Origin: Allotamlana fucoidanivorans
GTDB taxonomy: Bacteria; Bacteroidota; Bacteroidia; Flavobacteriales; Flavobacteriaceae
Assembly: GCF_006265225.1 (NCBI RefSeq)
Contig: NZ_VDCS01000008.1
Location: forward strand, 62,001-126,000
Length of the DNA: 64,000 bases
Reading direction: 5' to 3'
The notes below the pieces were generated by a model. That model was not told the DNA's origin. It ran no database searches and saw only the letters and a list, made by a program, of their open reading frames with translations. Position numbers and translations under genes: made by a program. Of the stretch, positions 5,247 through 15,066 are shown piece by piece. Each line of letters begins with the position of its first letter. Position 1 is the stretch's first letter.

Positions 5247-5337
5247 TAGGTTGTAATGAGTGTGTCTCGCTTTTGTTGATACAGCGTAAAAGATACTGTA
5301 ACGCAGGATTGTTTTAGTATGAAATGGTTAAAAATAA

Positions 5338-5370
5338 AAAATCCCAAACGATGTTGATGTTTGGGATTTT
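5338..5370. terminator. Bidirectional terminator between the small hypothetical gene and ahcY
   Basis: The stem AAAATCCCAAAC/GTTTGGGATTTT (5338-5349 with 5359-5370) has a 9-base loop and a T-run after it. It sits between convergent genes. Confidence 0.85.
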
Positions 5371-5405
5371 TTATTAGAAAAACTGAAGCACGTTCAGTAT
5401 AATGA

Positions 5406-13918: not shown

Positions 13919-14347
13919 TTAATTGAAAATTAAAAGATTGTTTCCAGAGGGCTCAACACGATATTGTTTTAAAGGACAACGTAAATTACCATTGTTTACA
14001 GCTAGGCCATTCAATAGGTTGTACTCATTTTTATCTTCACACCCACAAATGGCGTTAATGCCGTTTATTTTTAAAACAGAACAATTTTCAAATATATGGT
14101 TTGGGTCGGCCGCATCAAAGGCAATATAACTAGAACCAGTATTGTTTACAATAACACCACCATTCCCTGCATTAGAAATATAAACAGGGTTATTTGGAAA
14201 TTGTAGTTGGCTGTATTCAGGCAGGGTTAGGTTAATAGATGTATTAACATCAACGTCTAGCAAAAAATTACAATTTCTATTATCGTCAGAGTTTTTACTG
14301 CATGAAAATAAGGTGATTAGGAAAATTAAGGGAAAAAGATATTTCAT
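13919..14347 (-). CDS. Rieske-fold-like lipoprotein lacking cluster ligands
   Basis: A 142-residue lipoprotein (lipobox LFSCSK, Cys16). The C-terminal half (VIVNNTGSSYIAFDAADPNH, then INGINAICGCEDKNEYNL and LKQYRVEPSGNNLLI) follows the strand order of Rieske ferredoxin-like proteins. The ligand motifs are missing: the first Cys-x-His site reads DPNH, and the second has no His. Similar cluster-less lipoproteins are frequent in flavobacteria as far as I recall. The role is unknown; it likely sits in the periplasm or outer membrane. It is a single gene, divergent from greA. Confidence 0.6.
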   Translation of the reverse strand: MKYLFPLIFLITLFSCSKNSDDNRNCNFLLDVDVNTSINLTLPEYSQLQFPNNPVYISNAGNGGVIVNNTGSSYIAFDAADPNHIFENCSVLKINGINAICGCEDKNEYNLLNGLAVNNGNLRCPLKQYRVEPSGNNLLIFN

Positions 14348-14403
14348 AGCTTAAAAATAAATTTGCAATTTACAACAAAAAGTAAATTGACTTAAATATT
14401 TTG

Positions 14404-14411
14404 TATATTTG
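14404..14411 (+). promoter_or_regulatory. Promoter -7 box of greA
   Basis: TATATTTG matches the TAnnTTTG consensus. No clean TTTG was found at the ideal spacing; a TTG lies at 14387-14389. Transcription would begin around 14416, just at the first leader hairpin. Confidence 0.55.
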
Positions 14412-14415
14412 TGCT

Positions 14416-14440
14416 AAATCTCGTGTAAACGAGATTTTTT
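14416..14440 (+). terminator. Terminator-like hairpin 1 in the greA leader
   Basis: AAATCTCG (14416-14423) pairs with CGAGATTT (14430-14437) around a 6-base loop whose ends can also pair. A T-run continues to 14441. It lies only a few bases after the predicted start of transcription, so it would release a very short RNA. Confidence 0.65.
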
Positions 14441-14443
14441 TAT

Positions 14444-14488
14444 TGCTGAATGCTTCGCTATAAAGAAGTTTTTTCAGCATATTTTTTT
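14444..14488 (+). terminator. Terminator-like hairpin 2 in the greA leader
   Basis: The outer stem TGCTGAA/TTCAGCA (14444-14450 with 14473-14479) encloses an inner CTTC/GAAG stem (14453-14456 with 14465-14468). Seven T residues follow (14482-14488). It ends 20 bases before the greA ATG. Confidence 0.6.
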
Positions 14489-14508
14489 ACTAATTAAATA
14501 ATGACGTT

Positions 14509-14982
14509 ATGAGTAAAGTATCATACTATACACCTGAAGGACTAAAAAAATTAAGAGAAGAATTACAGCAACTTAAGGATGTGGAGCGTGTTAAAGCCTC
14601 AAAAGCTATTGCTGAGGCTAGAGATAAAGGCGATTTAAGTGAGAATGCAGAATATGATGCAGCAAAGGAAGCGCAAGGTATGTTAGAGATGCGTATTTCT
14701 AAACTAGAGGAAGCCTTATCTGGTGCGCGAGTTATTGATGAATCGCAACTTGATACCTCAAAAGCCTTGGTACTATCTAAAGTAAAGATAAAAAATCAAA
14801 CCAATGGGATGGAAATGACATACACTTTGGTTGCTGATGGTGAAGCTGATTTAGCTTCAGGAAAAATATCTGTAAATTCACCTATTGGTAAAGGCTTGCT
14901 TGGTAAATCAGTGGGTGATGTGGCTGAAATACAAGTGCCTAGTGGAGTGATGAAATTTGATGTTATTGAAATTACCCGATAG
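14509..14982 (+). CDS. greA: Transcription elongation factor GreA
   Basis: A 157-residue protein. The N-terminal coiled coil (about 1-75) includes ARDKGDLSENAEYDAAKEAQG, with the acidic residues that enter the RNA polymerase secondary channel. The C-terminal FKBP-like domain has SVNSPIGKGLLGKSVGDVAEIQVPSG in outline. GreA stimulates cleavage of backtracked RNA. The leader holds two terminator-like hairpins. A three-codon frame (ATG ACG TTA TGA, 14501-14512) overlaps the start codon. A HIT gene follows 120 bases later beyond a terminator. Confidence 0.97.
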   Translation: MSKVSYYTPEGLKKLREELQQLKDVERVKASKAIAEARDKGDLSENAEYDAAKEAQGMLEMRISKLEEALSGARVIDESQLDTSKALVLSKVKIKNQTNGMEMTYTLVADGEADLASGKISVNSPIGKGLLGKSVGDVAEIQVPSGVMKFDVIEITR

Positions 14983-15027: not shown

Positions 15028-15066
15028 AAAAAGATTCCTGCTTATTTTTATCAGGAATCTTTTTTA
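15028..15066 (+). terminator. Terminator after greA
   Basis: AAGATTCCTG (15031-15040) pairs with CAGGAATCTT (15052-15061) around an 11-base loop and is followed by a T-run. Confidence 0.85.

Follow-up and report, generated by a model that had tools for sequence, protein, structure and literature searches.

GreA governs the rescue of RNA polymerase and its fidelity, and even in Escherichia coli the control of its own level is understood only in part. The greA leader in a 64,000-nucleotide (nt) stretch of the Allotamlana fucoidanivorans genome (contig NZ_VDCS01000008.1, positions 62,001 to 126,000; hereafter the window) raises the question of whether early termination contributes. A sequence-only reading of this DNA had noticed a promoter box and two tandem terminator-like hairpins with T runs before the greA ATG, and had compared the layout with the GraL leader of E. 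coli. All of these elements can be read directly in the sequence, in a leader with a folding z score of -4.65, and they lie as follows.

14404-14411, + strand: sigma-A -7 box TANNTTTG, here TATATTTG (sequence)
14416, + strand: predicted transcription start (+1), placed from the position of the box
14416-14437, + strand: hairpin 1, 9 base pairs (bp), terminator-like (sequence, fold, covariation and a match to covariance model R1, described below)
14435-14441, + strand: T7 run of hairpin 1, its first 3 T paired (sequence)
14444-14479, + strand: hairpin 2, an outer stem of 7 bp and an inner stem of 5 bp (sequence, fold)
14482-14488, + strand: T7 run after hairpin 2 (sequence)
14509-14982, + strand: greA (Pfam PF03449 and PF01272 and the NCBIfam GreA equivalog NF001263, all above cut-off)

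We find that hairpin 1 is usual before greA in Bacteroidota, is tied to that gene and is not local to the window. Its structure, its covariation and its place relative to the promoter box are likewise observed. On these grounds we propose, with a probability of about 0.6, that hairpin 1 acts as a promoter-proximal intrinsic terminator attenuating greA, with GreA itself the likeliest factor and hairpin 2 a backup.

Hairpin 1 begins at the predicted transcription start

The main text of a transcription start map of Flavobacterium psychrophilum places a TAnnTTTG box at -12 to -5 (PMC9723704). By that map the greA transcript is predicted to start at 14416, where stem 1 begins. The arms of this stem, AAATCTCGT (14416-14424) and ACGAGATTT (14429-14437), are perfect complements without a G-U pair and enclose a GTAA loop. 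The stem reported earlier is thus there, but at 9 bp it is one pair longer than stated. A short RNA, about 26 nt long, is predicted to end in the T run at 14435-14441.

The leader (14414-14508) folds at -24.6 kcal/mol, and none of 200 shuffles was equally stable; folded singly, each hairpin has a z score below -4. In this fold, made on the window sequence only and from a predicted start, stem 1 is intact and no competing antiterminator fold appears. Adding 68 nt of upstream DNA (14348-14441) again left stem 1 intact without a competing fold. A simple terminator scan of the window listed stem 1 and missed stem 2 because the outer loop of the latter exceeds the limit of the scan. No Rfam family matched the window at its gathering score, and the sub-threshold matches within 14300-14600 had E values of 2.4 and 3.9, which rules out an Rfam family as the explanation of the leader.

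The hairpin recurs before greA and seldom elsewhere

We assembled 199 greA leaders from the class Bacteroidia (30 + 80 + 29 + 60 loci), 198 of them distinct; they are the loci listed or returned by searches rather than a random sample, and some may repeat a species. In 178 of the 198, an exact TANNTTTG box occurs no more than 220 nt from the ATG. A strict scan, which required this exact box, a hairpin 0-16 nt past it and a T run of at least 5, found the hairpin in 112 of these 178 leaders but after only 2 of the 909 other boxes that this DNA contains, and one of those two (L169) has a greA gene some 300 nt downstream. The leaders missed by the strict scan include some with obvious hairpins. 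Without a T requirement, 158/177 greA leaders, each scored by its best box, have a fold of -7 kcal/mol or lower in the 45 nt past the box, versus 163/881 other boxes, each scored singly; among the 127 intergenic promoter-like boxes within the 881, five have such a fold. Where the intergenic region is divergent, the hairpin is present in 74/90 greA leaders, 4/90 leaders of the partner gene and 3/150 others, and two of these three (L044 and L077) appear by eye to be greA leaders with a mis-called start. A relaxed scan found a hairpin in 183/198 greA leaders versus 9-14 in five rounds of shuffling, and in 14 of 23 leaders (20 + 3) from other classes of the phylum versus 2-3 in shuffles; a plain shuffle was used where no dinucleotide path was found. 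The rarity of the hairpin after other boxes and in other leaders rules out a general promoter feature. Across the class, the attenuator-like layout is real, covarying and tied to greA, and the earlier comparison with GraL is apt.

On starts predicted from the motif, stem 1 begins at +1 in 20, at +2 in 9 and at +3 in 42 of the 112 strict leaders; in 97 it begins no later than +4. For the short RNA, the predicted length has a median of 28 nt (range, 19-52). Since the stem ends at least 20 nt before the ATG in all 112, it is unlikely to cover the ribosome site.

A stem at the extreme 5' end could instead stabilize the greA mRNA against 5'-end-dependent decay, the T run being incidental, and its onset at predicted +1 to +3 in 71/112 strict leaders is the place expected for such a device. 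We consider this quite unlikely, as the T-rich tail is kept: the T fraction in the 9 nt past the outermost G-C pair is 0.66 versus 0.37 leader-wide (n = 168 leaders that carry an exact box and fold at -7 kcal/mol or lower), and aligned leaders show conserved T columns after stem 1. Local terminator-like hairpins, moreover, look like stem 1.

Five leaders with 78-82% GreA identity (L050, L053, L059, L062 and L063, from Muricauda, Flagellimonas, Croceivirga, Maribacter and Allomuricauda records) have, by eye, a stem 1 loop of about 30 nt that seems able to pair with itself.

Compensatory changes point to an RNA structure

Stem 1 was followed in two alignments, for which the shuffles ignore relatedness, so that the figures are not probabilities. 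The first, A1, holds 60 of 107 strict hairpins, hand-picked from the Flavobacteriaceae-like end, and its percentage of paired cells is inflated because rows were selected for having the stem. Five of its 9 pairs are changed on both sides, with 27 such cells versus 2.1 in shuffles, and RNAalifold predicted 8 of the 9 pairs. The second, A4, is unselected and holds 110 of the 121 leaders with a GreA identity of at least 72%, after removal of 5 that lack a usable box and 6 whose windows are identical. Here 87.4% of cells are paired, and sliding the partner by 1-3 columns lowers pairing to 33-55%. Double-side changes number 53 versus 23.6 in shuffles, none of 500 of which reached 53. A class-wide alignment, A2, was too diverged for pair counts and was not used.

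An inverted repeat at +1 to +22 might also be a DNA operator for a repressor, as the perfectly complementary arms in the window would allow. In relatives, G-U pairs break the DNA symmetry: at three inner positions of A1 they occur in 20, 22 and 19 of the 60 rows, and they form in the greA-sense RNA and not in the antisense one, which argues for RNA rather than an operator. We relied on these inner pairs because a first count of stems with G-U pairs (94/107) was inflated by an outer-end G that pairs with the T run. In addition, the sequence varies with compensation, and loop and stem lengths vary. The G-U pairs and the compensatory changes make an operator extremely unlikely. The sense fold was more stable than the antisense one in 91/110 leaders, but this counts for little because a control set picked for stable sense folds leans the same way (270/394).

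Divergent and codirectional neighbors

The genes on either side of the leader are the following.

13919-14347, - strand: divergent open reading frame (ORF) upstream of greA, 142 amino acids, with a lipoprotein-like start by eye
from 15103: HIT-domain gene downstream of greA (Pfam)

Between the divergent ORF and the greA ATG come, in order, the box, hairpin 1 with its T7 run, and hairpin 2 with its T7 run. Long flanks were available at 136 loci; 3 others were too short. Among the 136, the nearest ORF upstream of greA is divergent in 103 and codirectional in 33. Most of the 103 divergent ORFs are similar in size to the 142-amino-acid ORF of the window, for which a search of Pfam and NCBIfam matched no family at an E value of 0.001. 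The codirectional ones measure 1.03-1.11 kilobases in 28/33 loci and end 68-95 bp before greA in 24; these ORFs of about 1.03-1.11 kilobases may be porV-like, judging from the C-terminal end.

Where a codirectional gene ends so close upstream, the hairpin might mainly be the 3' terminator of that gene. This cannot hold in the window and the other divergent loci because the nearest upstream ORF there points away. Even in the codirectional arrangement we hold it to be unlikely, as the stem keeps its spacing of 0-7 nt from the box in 21/28 strict cases (4-7 nt in 64/80 divergent ones). The hairpin could serve both genes at codirectional loci.

Genome searches with a covariance model

From the 60 hairpins of A1 we built covariance model R1. 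Its best match in the genome of A. fucoidanivorans, and the only strong one, lies at greA (51.6 bits); the next scores 26.1 bits. Of 60 genomes of the family, 49 had a match at an E value of 0.1 or better. The best 29 loci returned from these genomes, together with the A. fucoidanivorans one, all sit immediately upstream of greA. Fifteen of the 29 were returned from genomes without a row of their own in the model, although some of these may be of the same species as a row.

Three of 14 further matches were inspected. L250 is greA. L240 and L241, two of the best matches outside greA, are hairpins that follow the stop of a different reading frame. At L240 (39.9 bits) the upstream frame stops at 187, the hairpin follows about 30 nt on, and a convergent ORF comes after it. 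At L241 (37 bits) the upstream frame, presumably the end of RecA, stops at 197 with the hairpin within about 12 nt, and the next forward ORF starts 50-70 nt past the hairpin, which may play a leader role for it. Hairpins with T runs 10-30 nt past a stop stand in the ordinary place of a terminator; stem 1 thus has the form of a local terminator.

Within the window, R1 also gave weak matches on both strands at 5328-5375 (17.7 and 11.3 bits), where there is a terminator-like palindrome.

A proposed attenuator and its alternatives

In the mechanism that we favor, RNA polymerase would start at about 14416 and pause in the T run some 26 nt on. A fraction of complexes would terminate at hairpin 1 and release a tiny RNA of 26-28 nt, while the rest would read into greA, so that the supply of GreA would depend on the frequency of read-through. 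Provided that the transcript starts as predicted, stem 1 has no RNA ahead of it from which an antiterminator or aptamer might arise, and the decision would therefore rest on the state of the polymerase and the factors bound to it. The likeliest deciding factor is GreA itself, in a negative feedback as at E. coli GraL: by cleaving the RNA in backtracked complexes, GreA would return them to the T run and give the hairpin another chance. The sign of the GreA effect could also be the opposite.

The precedent comes from E. coli, where the GraL leader is reported to stop about two thirds of the transcripts of greA, and GreA with catalytic activity to repress greA through GraL in cis (PMC6829880). 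The GraL RNAs are given there as 37-59 nt long, and the 19 nt or so that precede their hairpin as needed for full regulation. Like GraL, the Bacteroidota leader places a short hairpin and its T run after the greA promoter and before greA itself, within a divergent intergenic region, and the two have in common a tiny RNA that is shown in E. coli and predicted here. It differs in that the stem lies at predicted +1 to +3 in 71/112 strict leaders instead of about 19 nt downstream, and in the predicted RNA, with its median of 28 nt. Termination and feedback are shown in E. coli and predicted for the Bacteroidota leader, and the likeness does not imply a common origin.

The same hairpin might terminate as a fixed, unregulated throttle, or be read by NusA or NusG, the nucleotide supply or (p)ppGpp instead of GreA. 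The structural evidence given above serves this explanation equally, and stem sequences that vary widely while pairing is kept fit a need for structure only. A generic form, however, leaves the tie to greA in the genome searches and divergent regions unexplained, and the E. coli precedent favors GreA; we regard this alternative as somewhat unlikely.

Several observations weigh against the favored mechanism as a whole. A terminator at about +28 is closer to the promoter than in GraL (37-59 nt), and full regulation in E. coli needs sequence upstream of the hairpin, of which there is none here on the predicted start. In several leaders outside Flavobacteriaceae the T tail is broken by C or G. The strict scan was failed by 66/178 boxed leaders and the relaxed one by 15/198; by eye, some leaders that fail a scan have a bulged or T-poor hairpin. 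In A4 the pairs changed on both sides are all 8, a number matched by 21 of 500 shuffles. R1 found no match at an E value of 0.1 in 11/60 family genomes, and at least 3 of the 49 matched genomes (G001, G018 and G033) have no listed match at the greA place. The start site, termination, the GreA feedback with its sign, and the role of hairpin 2, finally, are points that we infer for Bacteroidota.

A broader claim is offered more tentatively, as a possibility that we rate below even odds: that a start-site terminator without aptamer or antiterminator operates phylum-wide, that read-through at about +28 gauges the GreA on the polymerase, and that this feedback loop has been kept while the stem drifted. 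If true, a terminator would stand at the start of the transcript in most of the phylum, and control of greA by early termination would be very widespread. The leader would also offer a minimal system (a 26- to 28-nt RNA, purified polymerase and GreA) in which to ask whether termination alone can sense an elongation factor.

Relation to known leaders

Attenuators in greA leaders are known from Proteobacteria, bacilli and Clostridia. Naville and Gautheret (2010; PMC2965389) place the greA/rnk family seventh in their ranking of genes that have 5' terminators, and report a competing antiterminator fold for greA leaders. The Bacteroidota leader resembles the greA and rnk leaders described there in its 5' terminator upstream of greA, but on the predicted start it has no upstream room for an antiterminator. 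The main text of that paper has no word starting with Bacteroid- or Flavobacter-; its supplement, covering 302 genomes, lies outside that check.

The main text of the F. psychrophilum study (PMC9723704) reports 64 structured 5' regions, some of which are conserved across genera and lack an Rfam match, and names conserved elements at pheA, hisG, ftsY, acsA, alaS and rimP. The greA leader is like these elements in being a conserved, Rfam-unmatched 5' structure in a flavobacterium. As a whole word, greA is absent from that main text, and Table S7, which this check did not cover, may list it; it was not found in a microbiome-wide RNA survey (PMC8040213) either. Our literature search found no paper on a Bacteroidota greA leader among top-ranked results that took in few subscription journals and no supplements, so an earlier mention is possible.

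Between promoter and greA, and on the same strand, the Bacteroidota leaders have a terminator-like hairpin followed by a T run, and its changes preserve pairing; the 19 nt or so that precede the GraL hairpin are not found on predicted starts, 97/112 strict leaders having the stem at +4 or earlier. We read these leaders as a probable variant form of greA-leader attenuation, unusual in standing at the start site.

The second hairpin

The outer stem of hairpin 2 pairs TGCTGAA (14444-14450) with TTCAGCA (14473-14479), and the inner one 14452-14456 with 14465-14469. In alignment A3, whose 20 rows were chosen for having a second hairpin, 4 of 6 outer pairs are changed on both sides, with 10 such cells versus 2.5 in shuffles. 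By eye, the T run after the hairpin has 4 or 5 T in 15 of the other 19 rows and 2, 3, 3 and 6 in the rest. In this lineage hairpin 2 would be a second, backup terminator.

It is lineage-restricted: in 62 of 109 strict leaders, fewer than 45 nt separate stem 1 from the ATG. The sequence-only reading had treated both hairpins as the greA-leader layout; this holds generally for stem 1 and within a lineage for stem 2. The paired changes that it had suggested looking for in aligned leaders are present in both stems, in A1 and A4 for stem 1 and in the 20 chosen leaders for stem 2. Related leaders lacking the stems, which it had named as speaking against its proposal, were not the case for stem 1 and were partly so for stem 2.

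Other features of the locus

Among the named matches listed, the closest relatives of the window's GreA come from Confluentibacter, Algibacter and Mariniflexile (92-93% identity), which likely places the host in Flavobacteriaceae. A strong hairpin with a T run lies between greA and the HIT-domain gene (15028-15064, -14.7 kcal/mol) and is likely the 3' terminator of greA. One further feature overlaps the greA start.

14501-14512, + strand: three-codon upstream ORF ATGACGTTATGA (sequence)

An upstream ATG at -8 that overlaps the greA start in this way occurs in 51 of the 121 leaders with a GreA identity of at least 72%, mostly as ATGAAGTTATGA, versus 1 of 342 other ORF starts of those loci. It may serve translational coupling, or the start region may simply be conserved.
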